A DNA stretch of 64,000 nucleotides from Arenibacter sp. F26102 (lineage in GTDB: Bacteria > Bacteroidota > Bacteroidia > Flavobacteriales > Flavobacteriaceae), in the NCBI RefSeq assembly GCF_023015865.1, contig NZ_JALKBC010000003.1, positions 62,001 through 126,000 on the forward strand, in the 5' to 3' direction. Position 1 is the first letter of the stretch. Every line of letters begins with the position of its first letter. The position numbers were made by a program, and so were the translations under genes. The notes under the pieces are model-generated. The model had not been told where the DNA came from. It did no database searches and worked only from the letters and a program-made list of their open reading frames with translations. Of this stretch, positions 20,289 to 32,022 are shown piece after piece.

Positions 20289-20325
20289 TTTGAAATAAAC
20301 TATAAAAACGATATTTTTGTTTAAC
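20289..20325 (+). promoter_or_regulatory. Promoter of the merR gene with GTTTAAC half-site
   Basis: A full Bacteroidota promoter: TTTG at 20289-20292, 19-nt spacer, TATTTTTG at 20312-20319. The 3' end of the -7 box runs into TTTTTGTTTAAC (20314-20325), the same half-site that forms the palindrome before the tetR gene. This suggests that the MerR protein represses its own gene. The expected transcript start leaves a leader of only about 15 nt. Confidence 0.65.
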
Positions 20326-20340
20326 TTTTTCTGAAAAAAA

Positions 20341-21240
20341 ATGAACAACGTTAAAAGTAACTTTAGCATCAAGGACCTTGAAAATCTTTCTGGCATAAAG
20401 GCCCATACTATTAGAATATGGGAAAAGCGCTACAATCTTTTTCAACCAAACAGAACGGATACCAACATAAGATGTTACAACATAGAGAACCTACAAAAAC
20501 TACTGAACGTAACGTTTCTATATAATAACGGTTATAAGATTTCAAAGATATCGGAACTCGGAGAGGAATTAATTCCCAACGTTGTGAGAGATTTGATTTC
20601 TGAGCAAAGTTACAACGGACATGTTTTAAATTCCCTAAAAATGTCCATGATGAATTTTGACCAAGCTCTATTCTTCAAAACTTATAACAAGCTATTAAAA
20701 GAAAAATCTTTTAGGAATATCTTTTATGAAGATTTTATCCCCTTTTTACATGAATTGGGACTACTCTGGCAGACAGACACCATAACACCCTCCCACGAAC
20801 ATTTTATTTGCGCCTTGATCAAGCAAAAGATTTTGGTGAATACTGAAAAGTTACAATTTAACACCCCTACCAAAACTTCCAAAACCTTTGTGCTGTACCT
20901 TCCCGATAATGAAATTCATGAGTTGGGCCTGATGTTTCTTAATTATGAAATCCTGTCTAAAGGCTACCAAACCATTTTTCTTGGGCAGAGTATCCCAATA
21001 TTTAGTTTAAAGGATTTAAAACCCTTATTTAACAATATTGTATTTGTTTCCTATTTTACCGTTCAACCGGATAAGGACAATATTATGGCATATCTCAGAG
21101 ATTTTCATGATTTGCTATTAACAGACAATACCTCCGAGCTATGGATACTGGGTAAAATGCTCCAGAAAATAAATCAAAGAGATCTGCCCAAAGCCATTGT
21201 TCCATTTTCCCAAATAGATGAATTGGTCCAAAAACTTTAA
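20341..21240 (+). CDS. MerR-family regulator with B12-binding-like domain (CarH/LitR type)
   Basis: 299-aa regulator. Residues 1-75 form a MerR winged helix (YSIKDLE-type start, AHTIRIWEKRY at 21-31). Residues about 95-165 are the B12-binding helical bundle with the W-x9-EH signature exact (Trp143, Glu153, His154). Residues about 180-299 are a Rossmann B12-binding domain in which the cobalt-ligand motif is ExHxxG (Glu191, His193, Gly196) instead of DxHxxG, so the axial His is kept. CarH/LitR proteins are adenosylcobalamin photoreceptors that release DNA in light. The downstream genes (folE, ABC1 kinase, GPx, SDR) fit a light and oxidative-stress cluster. Light sensing is inferred. Confidence 0.85.
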   Translation: MNNVKSNFSIKDLENLSGIKAHTIRIWEKRYNLFQPNRTDTNIRCYNIENLQKLLNVTFLYNNGYKISKISELGEELIPNVVRDLISEQSYNGHVLNSLKMSMMNFDQALFFKTYNKLLKEKSFRNIFYEDFIPFLHELGLLWQTDTITPSHEHFICALIKQKILVNTEKLQFNTPTKTSKTFVLYLPDNEIHELGLMFLNYEILSKGYQTIFLGQSIPIFSLKDLKPLFNNIVFVSYFTVQPDKDNIMAYLRDFHDLLLTDNTSELWILGKMLQKINQRDLPKAIVPFSQIDELVQKL

Positions 21241-21459
21241 TCTGCTTAATTCCATAGCAAAATAGTAGCACAGTCAAAAATTTGCTACCCCCAATTATTG
21301 GTTTTAACACCACTTTTAAGAGATCCGTGCTCTACAGATTTTAATCAAGGGATTTAACCCGAACCAACTATTTTACTTTATACTTTATCCACTCTTAGGG
21401 CAAGAACTTTAGGCCTTCAAAGATTATAATAAACCACCATATTCTAAAACCAAGTTAAA

Positions 21460-21505
21460 TTTTGTTTAATATTTAAACAAAAAGGTTAAACATTTTGTAT
21501 CTTGT
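21460..21505 (+). promoter_or_regulatory. Operator-promoter of the tetR gene (palindrome plus conserved block)
   Basis: A near-perfect palindrome of two 10-bp arms, TTTTGTTTAA (21460-21469) and TTAAACAAAA (21473-21482), with a 3-nt centre, followed by a further half-site in TTAAACATTTTGTA (21486-21499) and a -7-like TATCTTGT (21498-21505). The spacing from the first GTTTAA to the second TTAAAC is 16 nt, exactly as at 25019-25064. I take it as the binding site of the neighbouring MerR protein overlapping the promoter. Confidence 0.65.
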
Positions 21506-21523
21506 ACCTTACAAACTATAGTA

Positions 21524-22180
21524 ATGGCTAAAAAGAAAACAATTTCAGAAAACGACATTATTTCATCCTATATGGATTTTGTCCTAGAAAATAACGAAAA
21601 CCCCAAATCGGTCTACGCTTTTGCTAAAGCGAACAACTTTGAAGAATCAAAATTTTATGAATTTTTTGGTTCTTTTGAGGCCATTGAAAAACACGTTTTC
21701 AAAGCCTTTTTCGACAATACTCTTTCTGTTTTGGAAAAAAGCGAAGACTACAAATCTTTCGATGCCCGTAATAAACTATTGAGTTTCTACTTCACTTTTT
21801 TTGAAAATTTGACTGCCAATAGAAGTTATGTAGTTTATGCACTAGATCGCCATAAAAATGGCCTCAAGAGTCTAACATTATTATCTGAGCTAAAAAAGAG
21901 TTTTACCACGTACATTGAGGGCCTGAATATAGAGACTCTTGACATAAAGCAGGAACAAATAGATAAAATTCAGCAACGCGCGCTACAGGAATCGGCCTGG
22001 CTGCAATTGCTCTTGACCATAAAATTCTGGATGGACGACACCTCTGCCTCTTTTGAAAAGACCGACATTTTTATTGAAAAATCGGTCAACACCAGTTTTG
22101 ATGTTTTAAATATTGCGCCTCTTAAAAGTGTGCTCGACTTTGGAAAATTCATTTTCAAGGAAAGAATGCACACAAACTAA
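21524..22180 (+). CDS. TetR-like regulator
   Basis: 218-aa all-helical protein. Residues about 8-55 form a TetR-type helix-turn-helix (SVYAFAKANNFEESKFYEFFGSFEAIEKHVF), where the YAFAKANN..SKFYEFF part stands for recognition helices; the rest is a TetR C-terminal ligand or dimer domain. Start ATG lies about 20 nt after the predicted -7 box. It is 9 bp upstream of the ABC1 kinase gene and surely co-transcribed. It may sense a metabolite made by the cluster; ligand unknown. Confidence 0.8.
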   Translation: MAKKKTISENDIISSYMDFVLENNENPKSVYAFAKANNFEESKFYEFFGSFEAIEKHVFKAFFDNTLSVLEKSEDYKSFDARNKLLSFYFTFFENLTANRSYVVYALDRHKNGLKSLTLLSELKKSFTTYIEGLNIETLDIKQEQIDKIQQRALQESAWLQLLLTIKFWMDDTSASFEKTDIFIEKSVNTSFDVLNIAPLKSVLDFGKFIFKERMHTN

Positions 22181-22189
22181 ATTCCGTAG

Positions 22190-23500
22190 ATGAAAACAAT
22201 AGACAATATTCCTGTTTCAAAAATACATCGTGCTTCAAAATTGGTTTCTACGGGCGCTCGCGTTGGGGTTAATTACCTCAAATACTACGGGGATAAACTT
22301 ACTAAAACGGAAATTGAGGCAAGGTCGCGACTCAACGAAAACAACGCGGAGGATATCTATGACAGCCTTAAACAGCTCAAAGGAAGTGCGCTTAAAGTAG
22401 CTCAAATGTTGAGCATGGAAAAAAGTATAATGCCCCAGGCCTATGTAGAAAAATTTTCCTTGGCCCAGTTTTCCGTACCACCCTTGTCCCCTCCTTTGGT
22501 ACTTAAAACCTTTAAAAATTATTTTGGCAAATTGCCGAGTGAATTATTTGATTTCTTCAACACAACTTCAGTAAACGCCGCCAGTATAGGACAAGTCCAT
22601 GAGGCAGTAAAAGATGGGAAAAAACTTGCTGTGAAAATCCAATATCCTGGAGTTGCCGAGAGTATAGCCTCCGATTTAGCCTTGGTTAAACCCATCGCTA
22701 TTAAAATGTTCAATATAAAAGGAAAAGACTCGGACAAGTATTTTAAAGAAGTTGAAGGAAAACTCGTTGAGGAAACAAATTATGTGTTGGAAATGAAACA
22801 GAGCAAGGAAATTGCTAAGGCCTGCTCATTTATTCCCAACCTTTTGTTTCCTCAATATTATGAAGAATTATCCTCTGATCGCATTATTACCATGGACTAT
22901 ATGAAAGGCGAACACCTTTCGGAGTTTGCGGCCTACAATTCCGATCAAGCAAAAGCCAACAAATTAGGTCAAGCACTATGGGATTTTTATATGTTTCAGA
23001 TACATAAACTCAGAAAAGTACATGCCGACCCACATCCAGGTAATTTCCTGGTGTCCGAAGAAGGTCAATTAATTGCCTTGGATTTTGGCTGTATGAAAAT
23101 TATCCCCAATGAATTCTATATCCCCTATTTTGAACTTGCAATACTGGAAAATATTAGTAATCACAAATTTTTTGTTTCCAAATTATACGAATTGGAAATT
23201 TTGCGTGAAGACGATTCCAAGGAAGAAACGGAATTCTTCACTGATATGTTCCATGAGCTGTTGAGTCTTTTCACCCAACCGTTTCATGTAGAAACCTTTG
23301 ACTTTTCGGATGGTGAATTCTTTGGAAAAATCACCGAATTGGGGCAACGTTATTCCAAGAGTACGGAATTGCGAAAAATGAATGGAAATAGAGGTTCCAA
23401 ACATTTTATTTATATCAACAGGACCTTTTTTGGCTTATATAATCTCATGTTCGATTTAAAGGCCAACAATATTAAGATCAATAATTTTATTGGCTTGTAA
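22190..23500 (+). CDS. ABC1/AarF/UbiB-family kinase-like protein
   Basis: 436-aa atypical kinase. The conserved elements are the KxGQ-type motif at 69-72, here Lys-Val-Ala-Gln, the Ala-rich loop ASIGQVHEA at 131-139, the lysine segment LAVKIQYPGV at 146-155, the catalytic HADPHPGNFL loop near residue 282 and DFG (LDFGCMK) near 302. Family members support quinone or prenyl-lipid metabolism and photo-oxidative stress resistance. The Gly to Ala change in KxGQ may be typical of this branch. It overlaps no neighbour but sits 9 bp after tetR and 42 bp before the SDR gene, in one operon. Confidence 0.85.
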   Translation: MKTIDNIPVSKIHRASKLVSTGARVGVNYLKYYGDKLTKTEIEARSRLNENNAEDIYDSLKQLKGSALKVAQMLSMEKSIMPQAYVEKFSLAQFSVPPLSPPLVLKTFKNYFGKLPSELFDFFNTTSVNAASIGQVHEAVKDGKKLAVKIQYPGVAESIASDLALVKPIAIKMFNIKGKDSDKYFKEVEGKLVEETNYVLEMKQSKEIAKACSFIPNLLFPQYYEELSSDRIITMDYMKGEHLSEFAAYNSDQAKANKLGQALWDFYMFQIHKLRKVHADPHPGNFLVSEEGQLIALDFGCMKIIPNEFYIPYFELAILENISNHKFFVSKLYELEILREDDSKEETEFFTDMFHELLSLFTQPFHVETFDFSDGEFFGKITELGQRYSKSTELRKMNGNRGSKHFIYINRTFFGLYNLMFDLKANNIKINNFIGL

Positions 23501-23542
23501 TGTAGTATTACCATTGAATGATTTATCCAATTAAAGCAACAG

Positions 23543-24967
23543 ATGAAAATTCTCGTAACAGGATCCACCGGTTATATCGGAAAACGATTGATTCCCATTT
23601 TGATCAATGAAGGGCATCAGGTGGTCTGTGCCGTAAGGGATAAATTAAGAGCCGACAAAAATTATCTTAAGGATGAACACATCACCATAGTTGAGGCAGA
23701 TTTTTTAAAACCGGAAACACTCAAAAATATCCCTAAAGATATTGATGTGGCCTATTACTTAATCCACTCCATGTCTAACTCTTCCAACAATTTTGAACGC
23801 CTGGAGGCCGCTTGTGCGGCTAATTTCAAATCATATTTTTCATCTTCCCAACTAGAACAGGTCATTTATTTAAGTGGCATTACCAACGATGATCAACTAT
23901 CCAAACACTTACGATCAAGAAAAAATGTTGAGGACATTTTGGCTTCGGATTCATACGGGCTTACCGTCTTAAAGGCCGGTATTATTGTGGGATCAGGAAG
24001 TTCATCCTTTGAGATAATTAGAGACTTAGTAGAAAAATTACCTGTTATGATAGCTCCCAAATGGCTTAATACCAAAACACAACCATTGGCGGTAAGGGAT
24101 GTATTAGCGTTTCTATCAAGGGCAAAAGGAAAAAAAGAGCTTTTCAACACTTCCTATGATATTTTCGGACCCGAAATATTGACCTACAAACAAATGCTCT
24201 TGGAGTTTGCTGAGATAAGGGGGCTAAAGCGCTATATCCTAACAGTTCCGGTAATGACACCAAAACTTTCTTCCTATTGGCTGTATTTTGTTACCTCAAC
24301 CTCCTACAAATTGGCAACAGCACTCGTAGATAGTATGGGAGTCCAAATTGTTGGGAAACCCAGCAATATAAATCAACTTCTGAAGGTGGATCCCATTACC
24401 TACAAAGAAGCTGTGGAACTGGCTTTTGAAAAAATTGAACAAAACAGTATTGTATCCAGTTGGAAAGATTCCATGGTAAGCAGTGGCCGCTTAAAGAATA
24501 GCCTTCACAAATATATTAATGTTCCCCAATACGGCTGTTTTAAAGACTACAAAGAACGTGAAGTCAAAAATGAGGAGGACACCATTAATAAAATCTGGTC
24601 TATAGGCGGAACAACAGGTTGGTACTATGGAAACTTTCTCTGGAAAATAAGGGGTTATCTGGACCAATTTGCAGGCGGTATTGGATTACGTCGTGGTAGA
24701 ACCCATATTTCCGAATTGGATGCAGGGGACGCCTTAGATTTTTGGCGTGTGATTTTCAGCGATAAAAAAGAAAAAAAACTTTTGTTATATGCTGAAATGA
24801 AGCTACCGGGAGAGGCTTGGCTGGAATTCAAAATTGAAGAAGGTCTTTTAAAACAAACAGCAACCTTTAGGCCACGTGGACTTGCTGGCCGTTTGTATTG
24901 GTATAGCGTATATCCGTTCCACGGTTTAATTTTCAGTGGGTTGATTAATAAACTTGTTGCCAATTAA
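23543..24967 (+). CDS. SDR (atypical, NmrA-like) with C-terminal DUF2867
   Basis: 474-aa two-domain protein. Residues 1-300 are an atypical SDR with the nucleotide motif TGSTGYIG at 6-13 and YLIHSM near 76-81; the classical YxxxK pair is not evident. Residues about 320-474 match DUF2867 (WSIGGTTGWYYGNFLWKIRG, then LDFWRV and the C-terminal FRPRGLAGRLYWY). Such fusions are widespread next to ABC1 kinases and photolyases, function unknown. Same operon as tetR and the ABC1 gene. Confidence 0.83.
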   Translation: MKILVTGSTGYIGKRLIPILINEGHQVVCAVRDKLRADKNYLKDEHITIVEADFLKPETLKNIPKDIDVAYYLIHSMSNSSNNFERLEAACAANFKSYFSSSQLEQVIYLSGITNDDQLSKHLRSRKNVEDILASDSYGLTVLKAGIIVGSGSSSFEIIRDLVEKLPVMIAPKWLNTKTQPLAVRDVLAFLSRAKGKKELFNTSYDIFGPEILTYKQMLLEFAEIRGLKRYILTVPVMTPKLSSYWLYFVTSTSYKLATALVDSMGVQIVGKPSNINQLLKVDPITYKEAVELAFEKIEQNSIVSSWKDSMVSSGRLKNSLHKYINVPQYGCFKDYKEREVKNEEDTINKIWSIGGTTGWYYGNFLWKIRGYLDQFAGGIGLRRGRTHISELDAGDALDFWRVIFSDKKEKKLLLYAEMKLPGEAWLEFKIEEGLLKQTATFRPRGLAGRLYWYSVYPFHGLIFSGLINKLVAN

Positions 24968-25018
24968 AACCTTTTTATATAGTTATATCCTATACCGCCA
25001 TAAATAAATAGAATCCAT

Positions 25019-25064
25019 TTTTGTTTAACTAATTTTAAAAACTATTAAACATTTTGTAGCTTTG
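25019..25064 (+). promoter_or_regulatory. Second copy of the conserved operator-promoter
   Basis: TTTTGTTTAA (25019-25028), 16 nt, then TTAAACATTTTGTA (25045-25058), running into an exact -7 box TAGCTTTG (25057-25064). Fourteen consecutive bases and the spacing are the same as before the tetR gene. The ATG at 25080 would lie only about 10 nt from the transcript start. This marks the start of a second transcription unit of the same regulon. Confidence 0.65.
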
Positions 25065-25079
25065 ATAACAGAATTCAAG

Positions 25080-25511
25080 ATGATTTTAGAAACTTCACAT
25101 AAAAACAAAGATATTTCCTTGCTTATCAATGATGTTGTAGGGAGGCCTTTCAGTTTTATAAAAACCATAAAAATGAAAGGGAGCATTTCTAAAAGAATGA
25201 TCATCGAGGATTCGAGCCCAAATTTGAAAGCCTATTTAAACCGGGCCTTTGATCCTACCTTGGCCAATATAGAATTACGCCCCTTGGGAATACTTATAAG
25301 AATTATAAAAGGCCTGAGCAATTTTACCTGGGTAATTCCATATTATCAATTGGATATTTACAAAAGCAACAGCAACCATATATATTCCCAAGGACGTTTT
25401 ATTCGGTTTAGACTAGACAAGAACTTTAAAGAAAATAAACATTTCTTTGACAAACTTTTTATTTTAAAAGAGAAGTATAAGGCCAAATATGGTTTTCTAA
25501 AATTCAAATGA
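25080..25511 (+). CDS. Conserved-looking protein of unknown function in the light-type cluster
   Basis: 143 aa from ATG 25080; a TTG at 25062 in frame is inside the predicted -7 box and is unlikely to be the start. No membrane segment or signal peptide. The middle contains SFIKTIKMKGSISKRMII and a Tyr-rich stretch (WVIPYYQLDIYKSN); the C-terminus is Lys-rich. I do not recognise a family. It is the first gene after the second copy of the conserved operator, followed 35 bp later by the TIGR03643 gene. Confidence 0.68.
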   Translation: MILETSHKNKDISLLINDVVGRPFSFIKTIKMKGSISKRMIIEDSSPNLKAYLNRAFDPTLANIELRPLGILIRIIKGLSNFTWVIPYYQLDIYKSNSNHIYSQGRFIRFRLDKNFKENKHFFDKLFILKEKYKAKYGFLKFK

Positions 25512-25546
25512 TCAAAAGCTAAAGGGATATAGACCGAATTATTGAA

Positions 25547-25750
25547 ATGGCCTGGGAAGATAGAACGCCTTTTGAAGCTATTGAATATCAGTTATCGATT
25601 TCTGAACCGGAAGTAATAAAACTGATTCGCCGGGAAATAAATCCAAGTAGTTTTAAAATGTGGCGTTCACGGGTTAAAGGTCGGGCTACCAAACACCAAC
25701 AATTAAGAACGTTTGGCCATGGGCGCTTTAAATGTTCAAGACAAAAATAA
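25547..25750 (+). CDS. TIGR03643 family protein
   Basis: 67-aa small basic protein that starts MAWEDRTPFEAIEYQ, the hallmark of TIGR03643, followed by a helix-turn-helix-like segment (LSISEPEVIKLIRREI) and a Lys/Arg-rich C-terminus (KGRATKHQQLRTFGHGRFKC). The family is short, of unknown function and often found near photolyase/cryptochrome genes. It may bind nucleic acid. Its position before folE fits that association, although no photolyase gene is present in this window. Confidence 0.82.
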   Translation: MAWEDRTPFEAIEYQLSISEPEVIKLIRREINPSSFKMWRSRVKGRATKHQQLRTFGHGRFKCSRQK

Positions 25751-25833
25751 ATTACAAACAACTCAATTTCAAAACGATAACGTTGCTTTGCCTTATGGAT
25801 AAGTTCATGAGTACAGCACTTAAAAAAGATAAC

Positions 25834-26532
25834 ATGAATAGAGAATCATTGACCTTAAACAATAGAAATAGCCAAAAATTAAATGGATTTACCCATACGG
25901 ATATTGGTGACGATCATTTGTATACCGGTTTGGAAACACCAATGAAATTGGACGCCTTTAAACTAAATGACAGAGAGAAAAAACAACGTATTGCCTTGTT
26001 GTTTGAGGAAATTATGGATGTTATGGGTTTAGACTTAACAGATGATTCCTTAAAAGGAACACCGGAACGTGTAGCCAAGATGTATATTGATGAGATTTTC
26101 TCTGGATTAAATCCTGAAAACAAACCAAAAATTGCATTGTTCGACAATAAGTATCAATACAACCAGATGTTGGTGGAGAAGAACATTACCTTCTATTCCA
26201 ACTGTGAACATCATTTTGTTCCCATCATCGGAAAAGCGCATGTAGCTTATATCTCTTCTGGAAAAGTAATAGGATTGTCCAAATTGAACAGAATTGTACA
26301 ATATTATGCAAAGCGTCCACAGGTACAAGAACGCCTTACCAATCAAATCGCAGAGGATTTGAAAAGTATTTTAGGTACGGACAATGTTGCGGTCATAATT
26401 GATGCCAAACATTTATGTGTTTCCTCAAGGGGCATTAAAGATGAAACGTCCGCAACCGTAACCTCCTATTATGGAGGGAAATTTAATACCTCATCAAAAA
26501 TAGCAGAATTACAAAATTATCTCAAAAATTAA
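25834..26532 (+). CDS. folE: GTP cyclohydrolase I
   Basis: 232 aa from the chosen start MNRESLTLNN; in-frame ATGs at 25807 and 25795 are possible, the chosen one being preceded by an A-rich AAAAAAGA. GTP cyclohydrolase I converts GTP to 7,8-dihydroneopterin triphosphate. The zinc ligands are seen in NCEHHF (Cys, His) and in HLCVSSRG (Cys), and ERLTNQIAEDL and GTPERVAKMY are further family signatures. In this context it may supply a pterin or folate chromophore for photolyase-type enzymes rather than bulk folate. It is 4 bp from the next small gene. Confidence 0.93.
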   Translation: MNRESLTLNNRNSQKLNGFTHTDIGDDHLYTGLETPMKLDAFKLNDREKKQRIALLFEEIMDVMGLDLTDDSLKGTPERVAKMYIDEIFSGLNPENKPKIALFDNKYQYNQMLVEKNITFYSNCEHHFVPIIGKAHVAYISSGKVIGLSKLNRIVQYYAKRPQVQERLTNQIAEDLKSILGTDNVAVIIDAKHLCVSSRGIKDETSATVTSYYGGKFNTSSKIAELQNYLKN

Positions 26533-26778: not shown

Positions 26779-27462
26779 ATGAAAACAATAGTTATAATTG
26801 GAGGCAGCAAAGGCATAGGAAATGCTATTGTTGAAACTTTGGTTGATTCCCATAAAGTAATCAACATTAGTAGGTCTGTCCCAGAACAAACCCACTCCAA
26901 TTTAACACATTTTAATTGTGACATACTAAGTGACGAGTTACCTGAAATTTCAGCGATGGATGCCTTGGTATATTGTCCAGGAAGCATCAATTTAAAACCC
27001 ATTGCAAGATTAAGCTTGGAGGACTTTAGGGATGATTTTGAAATAAATGTTGTTGGAGCCGTAAAGGCTATTCAAAAGTATCTGAACGTTTTAAAAAAAA
27101 GCGAACGACCCTCGGTTTTACTCTTTAGCACCGTAGCTTCCAAATTAGGTATGCCTTACCACGCAAGTATTGCCACCGCCAAATCCGGTGTAGAAGGATT
27201 GGTAAAATCCTTGGGTGCGGAATTGGCACCAACTTTACGCATAAATGCCATTGCACCCACGGTTACAGATACGCAATTGGCTTCCAAGCTTCTGCGTAAC
27301 GATAAGATGATAGAAAACATAAAAGATCGGCATCCGCTAAAGAAATTCCTCAACCCCAAGGAAGTGGCAGATATGGCGGAATTTTTATTATCGGACAAAG
27401 CCTCCTCTATCTCGGGTCAAATTTTTGAAATGGACTGCGGAATAGTAACATTTAAAATTTAA
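26779..27462 (+). CDS. SDR-fold protein lacking the catalytic Tyr
   Basis: 227-aa SDR with the nucleotide motif GGSKGIG at 8-14 and NVVGA at 90-94. The lysine of YxxxK is Lys135 (HASIATAKSGVEGL), but the Tyr position four residues before it is Ile131; Tyr127 and His128 lie nearby, and the Ser region reads FSTVASK (117-122). So the standard proton relay is absent or shifted. This HASIA-x-AK form recurs in a subfamily beside folE and photolyase genes, to my knowledge of the family. It may reduce a pterin or act with an altered mechanism. Co-directional, 3 bp before the GPx gene. Confidence 0.82.
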   Translation: MKTIVIIGGSKGIGNAIVETLVDSHKVINISRSVPEQTHSNLTHFNCDILSDELPEISAMDALVYCPGSINLKPIARLSLEDFRDDFEINVVGAVKAIQKYLNVLKKSERPSVLLFSTVASKLGMPYHASIATAKSGVEGLVKSLGAELAPTLRINAIAPTVTDTQLASKLLRNDKMIENIKDRHPLKKFLNPKEVADMAEFLLSDKASSISGQIFEMDCGIVTFKI

Positions 27463-27465
27463 TGT

Positions 27466-28005
27466 ATGAACCCGTTCAAAATATTTGCGGCAACTCTATT
27501 CTCGGGTTCAAAACCTGAAGAAAAGGTAGATTTGCAAACCATATATGACATTAGTATTAATAGCATAAGCCAAAAACCCATAAACCTTAAGGACTTTGAA
27601 GGAAAGCATATTTTATTTGTAAATGTGGCTTCAAAATGCGGCTTTACTCCCCAATATACGGAACTACAGAAGCTTCATGAAGCCTATAAAAATAAATTGG
27701 TGGTCATTGGATTACCATGCAATCAATTTGGAGGCCAAGAACCGGGAAAGGCCAAAGACATTGAAACATTTTGTGAAATAAATTATGGGGTGAAATTCCT
27801 AATAACCGAAAAGATTGATGTAAAAGGCAAAAACCAACATTCCTTGTATAGATGGCTTACAAACAAAGCTATAAACGGAGTTAAAACTTCCACTGTAAAA
27901 TGGAATTTTCAAAAATATCTTGTGGACGACAAAGGAAAATTGGTAGATTATTTCTTCTCAAACACAAATCCCATGAGTTCCAAAATCACAAAACACCTAA
28001 AATAA
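27466..28005 (+). CDS. Glutathione peroxidase family (Cys type)
   Basis: 179-aa thiol peroxidase. Active-site Cys58 is in NVASKCGFTPQY, the Gln in LPCNQFGGQEPG (about 84-94) and the Trp-Asn pair in VKWNFQKYLV (about 145-154). It is a cysteine, not selenocysteine, enzyme and probably uses thioredoxin. It reduces hydrogen or lipid hydroperoxides. The N-terminus (residues 5-15) is mildly hydrophobic but not a clear signal peptide. Its place at the end of the light-type cluster fits protection from photo-oxidative damage. Confidence 0.9.
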   Translation: MNPFKIFAATLFSGSKPEEKVDLQTIYDISINSISQKPINLKDFEGKHILFVNVASKCGFTPQYTELQKLHEAYKNKLVVIGLPCNQFGGQEPGKAKDIETFCEINYGVKFLITEKIDVKGKNQHSLYRWLTNKAINGVKTSTVKWNFQKYLVDDKGKLVDYFFSNTNPMSSKITKHLK

Positions 28006-31341: not shown

Positions 31342-32022
31342 TCAATAAAAATTCGCAATATGTATGAGACGTTCAATATTTAACAATTGAATTTTACGAC
31401 CATCCGTAGCAATAAGTTTATCATGTTTAAAATCATGAAGTACACGTGCCAAGGTTTCAACTACTGTCCCAGCCATATTGGCCAAATCTGATCGAGAAAG
31501 TTTAATATACGTAATTGCAATAGCATCAACCTTATATTTATCATGTAAAATCAATAAATTAAGAGCCACTCGTTCCCTTACTGTGCGTTGAGATAATACC
31601 GCTATAAGATTTGCCAAAACACTAAATTCGTGGCTTAGACTTTTCAATAGCAAACGAGAAAATGATGAAGAATTGTTGAGTATCCTATTAAAATCATTAA
31701 TAGTTATAAATGAGATTATTGCATTCTCTATGGCGACTGCTGTATCTCCGTAAGTATTTTCACTTAAAACCGATGAATAGCCAAAAAATTCACCTTCATT
31801 GTAGATATAAATAATTTGTTCTCGCCCATCATTGTCTATTTTGTATTTTTTTACTTTACCGCTTTGCAAATAAAAAATACCCGATGGTAAGGTGCCTTCC
31901 GTAAATATAGGTTGGTTTTTGCGATACTTTTTATCGATCATTAATTCCTCAAGCAAATCTTTATCAGCTGGAGGTAATTCCTTTAAAATATACTGGCTAT
32001 TGAATATAAATTTTGTAATCAT
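31342..32022 (-). CDS. Crp/Fnr-family transcriptional regulator without Fe-S cysteines
   Basis: 226-aa regulator: cyclic-nucleotide-binding-type beta roll at about 20-125 (GIFYLQSGKVKKYKID, EGEFFGYSSVL), dimer helix about 125-150, and a Crp-type winged helix at about 150-220 (KLSRSDLANMAGTVVETLARVLHDF). There is no cysteine in the whole protein, so it cannot hold the FNR iron-sulfur cluster. The recognition helix keeps the Glu and Arg of FNR (VETLAR against VETISR). A perfect FNR box stands 46 bp before its start, which suggests autoregulation. Ligand unknown; heme, NO or redox sensing are possible. Confidence 0.88.
   Translation of the reverse strand: MITKFIFNSQYILKELPPADKDLLEELMIDKKYRKNQPIFTEGTLPSGIFYLQSGKVKKYKIDNDGREQIIYIYNEGEFFGYSSVLSENTYGDTAVAIENAIISFITINDFNRILNNSSSFSRLLLKSLSHEFSVLANLIAVLSQRTVRERVALNLLILHDKYKVDAIAITYIKLSRSDLANMAGTVVETLARVLHDFKHDKLIATDGRKIQLLNIERLIHIANFY

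Follow-up and report, generated by a model that had tools for sequence, protein, structure and literature searches.

Why does a short DNA element recur at the head of two neighbouring operons beside a gene for a B12-type MerR regulator, and which protein acts on it? The question is raised by a 64,000-nucleotide (nt) stretch of the Arenibacter sp. F26102 genome (contig NZ_JALKBC010000003.1, positions 62,001 to 126,000), here called the window. We consider it likely that the element is the operator of this MerR protein (type A; 20341-21240, + strand), a CarH/LitR-like autorepressor that would depend on adenosylcobalamin (AdoCbl) and be released by light. Comparison of genomes indicates that the element is real and supports its reading as an operator of fixed design linked to the regulator; DNA binding, AdoCbl, repression and light dependence are what we infer.

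In its long form, TGTTTAA-N16-TTAAACATTTTGTA, the element occurs in two exact copies 3,559 bp apart. TTTTGTTTAA lies at 21460 and 25019 and TTAAACATTTTGTA at 21486 and 25045, with a gap of 16 nt between the blocks and a start-to-start distance of 26 nt each time. The original prediction had described this shared design and identical spacing before a tetR gene and the gene at 25080, and both copies were confirmed; the position that it gave for tetR, 21460, belongs to the element, and the gene starts at 21524. There is no further occurrence of TTAAACATTTTGTA on either strand of the window, and the exact core TGTTTAA-N16-TTAAACA (operator 1, 21463-21492; operator 2, 25022-25051) is found nowhere else in the 5.44-Mb genome. 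From the base composition of the window, 3.6e-5 exact long-form copies would be expected in a genome. Both cores are followed by TTTTG and then by a -7-like box, TATCTTGT (21498-21505) and TAGCTTTG (25057-25064), respectively. When up to two mismatches were allowed, the genome gave 94 matches per strand versus 112 for the reversed pattern, which served as the control in the mismatch searches. Looser matches are thus at chance level in this genome, and a genome-wide target list based on them was dropped. A palindrome with 10-bp arms, reported earlier for copy 1 (21460-21482), is exact in this genome alone among the 11 genus genomes from which the tetR promoter was taken; because it is not conserved in the genus, it was set aside and is incidental. 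A third half-site in the spacer was also considered and rejected, as the sequence logos give only T- and A-runs there.

The merR gene carries the element in its own promoter. Where a lone half-site had been reported, we found a full third element (20318-20347), in which TGTTTAA at 20318 is followed after exactly 16 nt by (A)TGAACA, the latter spanning the merR start codon and matching the CarH core TnnACA. The promoter, as read from the sequence (20289-20319, + strand), comprises TTTG (20289-20292), 19 nt and TATTTTTG (20312-20319), a TAnnTTTG sequence that we take to be the -7 box after the Bacteroidetes promoter consensus. The left half-site overlaps this box. The same arrangement is present in 45 of 47 type-A loci and in 64 of the 80 named type-A loci, a set retained from 595 confirmed stretches, and the -7 box overlaps the half-site in 69 of the 80. 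The right half-site reaches into the coding sequence. Among 116 distinct merR genes with an ATG start (out of 127), the second codon reads AAC in 110 cases and AAT in two. By contrast, AAC makes up 36% of the other Asn codons of these genes, and at each of ten other well-conserved Asn positions its share is at most about 53%. A protein constraint on Met-Asn is insufficient to explain this bias (110/112 versus 36% elsewhere in merR), so that selection must act on the DNA itself at the merR start. Because the merR promoter holds a full third operator, autoregulation is the natural reading, and we regard both autoregulation and the link of the element to the B12-type MerR as well supported by these comparisons. 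Of the light/B12 regulon with autoregulation that had been proposed, these two parts stand, on the merR element, the codon constraint and the half-site base discussed below; its light and B12 parts are still what we infer.

The original prediction had staked its case on recurrence upstream of orthologous genes in relatives, and this was found in both the genus and the family. With up to three mismatches, all 18 genus genomes match (45 matches versus 16 for the reversed control, which itself matches in 9 of the 18), and with at most one mismatch 14 do. Across the family, sampled as one genome from each of 199 genera, 112 genomes match with up to two mismatches (194 matches versus 22 for the control). 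Outside the family no recurrence is claimed: 17 of 119 order-level genomes match at this threshold, six of them in-family genomes including that of the window, and the remaining 11 come close to what the control gives. Two genomes of another family of the order (G254, G318) hold the exact core TGTTTAAC-N14-GTTAAACA, which may be a rare extra-family occurrence.

We fetched 20 family clusters, chosen for having two motif matches. All of them have the element before tetR and a second one before the gene for a 143-amino-acid (aa) protein, and all encode orthologues of abc1, the DUF2867 gene and the short-chain dehydrogenase/reductase (SDR) gene; folE is present in 16, glutathione peroxidase in 18 and TspO in 19. 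The photolyase that had been named as a target was not found among the scanned proteins of the window cluster, and stands in the same cluster in relatives, in 20/20 (62-100% to that of L130). In one genus member (L043, genome G014) the element lies 204 nt from the start of the 143-aa gene, with a G+C-rich, repeat-looking stretch between them.

Co-occurrence of motif and regulator is weak proof. Because the long pattern used for it is tied to tetR-type promoters, we preferred a positional test at those promoters. We read 91 tetR upstream regions out of 131 tetR genomes: 20 picked for two motif matches, 10 from genomes without type A, 60 picked by TetR score, and the window. In type-A genomes the exact core at N16 is present in 63 of 80 regions, whereas 200 rounds of dinucleotide shuffling gave 0.01 on average and never more than 1. 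When spacers of 6 to 30 nt were allowed, 63 cores had a spacer of 16, one of 17 and one of 29, with none elsewhere; the convergent orientation totalled 2 and the direct orientations 4 and 2. A tandem-repeat arrangement was rejected, direct arrangements being rare in these regions. The 60 regions picked by TetR score are blind to the motif, and 59 of them are from type-A genomes. A perfect TGTnnAA-N16/17-TTnnACA precedes tetR in 50 of the 59, and of the 49 such elements at N16, 35 stop 28-38 nt short of tetR.

The identity of the binding protein is indicated by a second MerR-B12 paralogue, type B, which is about 33% identical and forms a separate clade (support 100/100). The two types differ at base 4 of the half-site, within the variable 'nn' of the TnnACA core. 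In half-sites of the form TGTnnAA-N16/17-TTnnACA at type-A loci of 29 genera, this base is T in 23 and C in one (an alternative 46-locus family set repeats some genomes), and at type-B loci of 12 genera it is C in 39, T in six and A in five; the difference in C versus T (Fisher 8e-12) comes from related sequences that are not independent. When the 80 named type-A loci were scanned over their full length, the counts were T 44, A 4 and C 4. The C-type elements of 24 type-B loci, one genome entering twice, have spacers of 16 (14 elements) or 17 (20 elements), with none at 8-15 or 18-30. Because the half-site base tracks the MerR paralogue, the local TetR is disfavoured as the binder. Promoters of tetR go with the regulator as well: six genomes with type B only have C/C in two cases and C/T in one, against T/T in one and no element in two, and of five sampled genomes scored as having neither regulator one has the element. 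G024, placed in this last group, encodes a MerR that fits neither type clearly (36% to type B) and has a T/T element at the locus of that gene. The Arenibacter genome also has, outside the window, three C-type N17 elements upstream of its type-B merR (C8:17347-17494); they are 52-65 bp apart and form a clustered operator array, and two have one mismatch to the search pattern.

Gene neighbourhoods differ between lineages. The MerR-headed cluster of the original prediction is present in the window but is not general: type-A merR occurs with crtI in 78 of the 80 named loci and with crtB in 76, and merR is in 0/20 fetched family clusters. The location of merR beside crtI, away from tetR, also points to MerR and not TetR as the binder. 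Where merR adjoins crtI, the merR promoter may serve both. Within the genus, 12 genomes encode two MerR-B12 proteins and six encode one. In the six, the type-A gene lies with crtI-crtB; in the window and the other 11 fetched genus genomes, crtI and crtB were not found near it, and it adjoins tetR in the window and in 10 of the 11. The type-B gene is near crtB and a photolyase gene in three type-B loci (19 kb read). In the window lineage, the two regulators thus appear to share the work between them. Type-A merR genes 59-61% identical to that of the window were also found in metagenome-assembled genomes labelled Rhizobium, Klebsiella and Bifidobacterium (L309, L342, L357), which are probably mislabelled or mixed assemblies.

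The type-A protein combines the Pfam domains MerR_1, a helix-turn-helix (HTH) domain, and B12-binding_2. Its predicted structure has a mean predicted local distance difference test score (pLDDT) of 85.2 and a predicted template modelling score (pTM) of 0.66, and CarH is the best PDB match both by sequence and by predicted fold, the fold fitting full-length Thermus thermophilus CarH (TtCarH) best. As had been noted, the W-x9-EH signature and the axial His are present (W143, E153, H154 and H193), and they are invariant in 73/73 MerR rows of types A and B. These rows were taken from a total of 80 (L019, L138, L147, L152, L162, L205 and L211 were left out by the start rule) and include two genomes twice (L032 and L198; L158 and L217). 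The light-response signature of class I LitR/CarH is reported to consist of GxxW, EH, GxxH and GxxxP (PMC11796333), of which GxxW, EH and GxxxP are present here and GxxH is altered in most type-A rows. Scores against the CarH equivalog NCBIfam NF052513 are 63.5 bits for type A and 99.7 for type B, both below the 400-bit cut-off. A cobalamin adenosyltransferase gene is present in the genome. We suggest that type-A MerR is CarH/LitR-like in build and probably in action, and is not a CarH equivalog.

Known systems resemble this one in part. CarH of T. thermophilus and Bacillus megaterium shares the N-terminal MerR HTH with a full C-terminal B12-binding region of four-helix bundle and Rossmann fold, W-x9-EH, the axial His and the half-site core TnnACA, and carotenoid genes adjoin merR in relatives of the window genome. 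In the account of PMC8156234, AdoCbl-loaded CarH oligomers block promoters in the dark and leave in the light. Known CarH operators are described as tandem 11-bp direct repeats, nnnnTnnACAn (PMC9304148), whereas the element here is an inverted pair with N16 that keeps the core. The same source reports, for CarA/CarH of Myxococcales, light and B12 control of carotenoid genes and CarA sites first described as inverted repeats; later work favours direct repeats for CarA too, and these operators are plastic, unlike the fixed spacer here (PMC9304148). Class II LitR of Pseudomonas (PplR, PmlR2) is said in PMC9758184 to have targets very similar to those here, namely photolyase, folE, cryptochrome and short-chain dehydrogenase genes, and to overlap its promoters as a repressor, as type-A MerR would. 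However, its sites are given as TGTACA-N12-TGTACA rather than TGTTTAA at N16 (PMC9758184), and class II LitR has only the four-helix bundle and acts with a LOV protein, whereas the Rossmann part and the axial His are present here. The Vibrio cholerae MerR protein VCA0056 is presented in PMC5241685 as a blue-light regulator in a predicted operon with a photolyase gene that affects its own gene, with a mechanism based on reactive oxygen species proposed there. In Chryseobacterium lacus, crt genes are light-induced and the authors state that they found no car or lit operon (PMC7064467), which speaks neither for nor against the operator described here. No description of such an operator in Bacteroidetes was found in the titles and abstracts listed by searches of an open-access library; subscription journals lie mostly outside these searches, which are no proof of novelty.

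A simple model can be drawn from these features. In the dark, AdoCbl-loaded type-A MerR would occupy a pair of CarH-type half-sites (core TnnACA) that face outward and whose heptamers are 16 nt apart. Bound to operators 1 and 2, it would cover the promoters of the tetR operon and of the 143-aa-gene operon on their -33 side, and at merR the region from the -7 box through the start codon, and in this way would repress both operons and its own gene. Light would break the cobalt-carbon bond and release MerR, and genes for folate/pterin synthesis and redox or membrane functions would be turned on, in relatives together with photolyases, TspO and carotenoid genes. For tetR and the 143-aa gene, the -7 box begins 5 nt beyond the right half-site; for crtI it falls within the element, and for merR it shares bases with the left half-site. 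Because its position relative to the operator varies between promoters, a roadblock repressor is the simplest mode of action.

Alternatively, the element could be the autoregulatory operator of the TetR-like protein, with MerR a bystander or mere co-regulator. It is consistent with this that the gene directly behind operator 1 is tetR in 20/20 fetched clusters, and that the long motif goes with TetR among type-A genomes (95/119 with TetR versus 9/31 without); such dependence is expected if tetR is the main target of MerR, but equally if TetR is the binder. However, G006 has no TetR match and keeps two exact elements, so the element is not confined to TetR carriers, and elements are present at merR in G094, G147, G160 and G035, genomes in which no TetR was found. 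In addition, base 4 tracks the MerR type, and in ten tetR genomes picked for the absence of type A, a perfect element before tetR is missing in six and present only in the C/C form in another two. We find a TetR operator distinctly unlikely. The assignment to MerR nonetheless has several observations weighing against it besides the TetR dependence. A perfect element before tetR is missing in 9 of the 59 motif-blind type-A genomes, and a further exact element precedes crtI in only 8 of the 80 named loci. Among the six genomes with type B only, the tetR promoter of one has T/T and those of two have no element. G096 (81% complete) has the element and no MerR was found in it, and in G006 the merR promoter itself has diverged. 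The exceptions G042, G031, G185 and G096, with the TetR dependence, keep the MerR assignment short of proof.

If MerR is the binder, it might sense cobalamin supply or redox state and not light. Two sequence features would then be telling, and also count against light release. In place of the GxxH of the light-response signature, 47 of 50 type-A rows have NxxH, whereas 17 of 23 type-B rows keep GxxH. At the equivalent of His132, 49 of 50 type-A rows have Gln and 21 of 23 type-B rows have Gly; TtCarH, according to PMC10442372, needs His132 for disassembly. This residue, which serves bis-His ligation in TtCarH, varies in other photoreceptors. On the other hand, CtMerR, with Arg at this position, is reported still to go from tetramer to monomer in light (PMC11796333), and the gene content of relatives is typical of light responses (photolyases, crtI-crtB). 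We think a cobalamin or redox sensor unlikely. A promoter read by an alternative sigma factor could instead explain why, at tetR and the 143-aa gene, the spacing is constant and a -7-like box follows at a set distance. We hold this to be very improbable: the element is symmetric, the -7 box takes up different positions with respect to it at different promoters, and base 4 follows the MerR paralogue. Chance similarity in A+T-rich DNA would fit the loose matches, which are at chance level in the window genome and outside the family, and has next to nothing in its favour, given that exact copies stand at orthologous positions with a single spacer, that shuffled sequences almost never yield the core, and that synonymous codon choice is constrained.

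Under the preferred reading of the element as a MerR operator, a broader proposal can be made, which in our view could equally prove right or wrong: the family would employ a pair of B12 photoreceptors whose operators share an inverted-repeat design not known for CarH and are told apart by a nearly orthogonal code in one base (TGTTTAA for type A, TGTC(T/C/A)AA for type B). Where both occur, as in the window lineage, they would split folate/redox from carotenoid genes, and light would switch them without the His132 ligand exchange. If these readings hold, Flavobacteriaceae, a family with many marine members, would gain a searchable operator consensus and a concrete light-sensing regulon. CarH research would gain a further operator design and a natural paralogue pair apparently differing in DNA specificity at one base, and the light-release mechanism of CarH-like proteins would become directly testable in sensors without the residue held to drive the disassembly of TtCarH.

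The genes behind the operators are all on the + strand. Behind operator 1, the domain scan identified the TetR-like regulator (TetR_C_23; 21524-22180), followed by an ABC1/UbiB-type atypical kinase recognized by Pfam and NCBIfam (22190-23500) and an NmrA-like SDR fused to DUF2867 (23543-24967). First behind operator 2 is the gene for the 143-aa protein (25080-25511), which has no Pfam or NCBIfam match and is nevertheless conserved at 46-60% in 20/20 fetched clusters. It is followed by a DUF2805/TIGR03643 coding stretch with a provisional start codon (25526-25750; Pfam/NCBIfam) and, from the domain scan, folE for GTP cyclohydrolase I (25834-26532), an SDR oxidoreductase (26779-27462) and glutathione peroxidase (27466-28005). 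Upstream of folE (25735-25833) is a genus-conserved block, CTCAATTTCAAAACG.TAAC..TGCTTTG, that is free of the element and may be a promoter of its own for folE. A few kilobases from the cluster, a gene for a CRP/FNR-like regulator lies at 31342-32022 on the - strand. In other genomes, exact cores were seen between the genes htpG (HSP90) and beta-ketoacyl-acyl carrier protein (ACP) synthase III (G160, G067) and before htpG (G122), and these htpG-linked cores (L190, L192, L195) are possible further targets.

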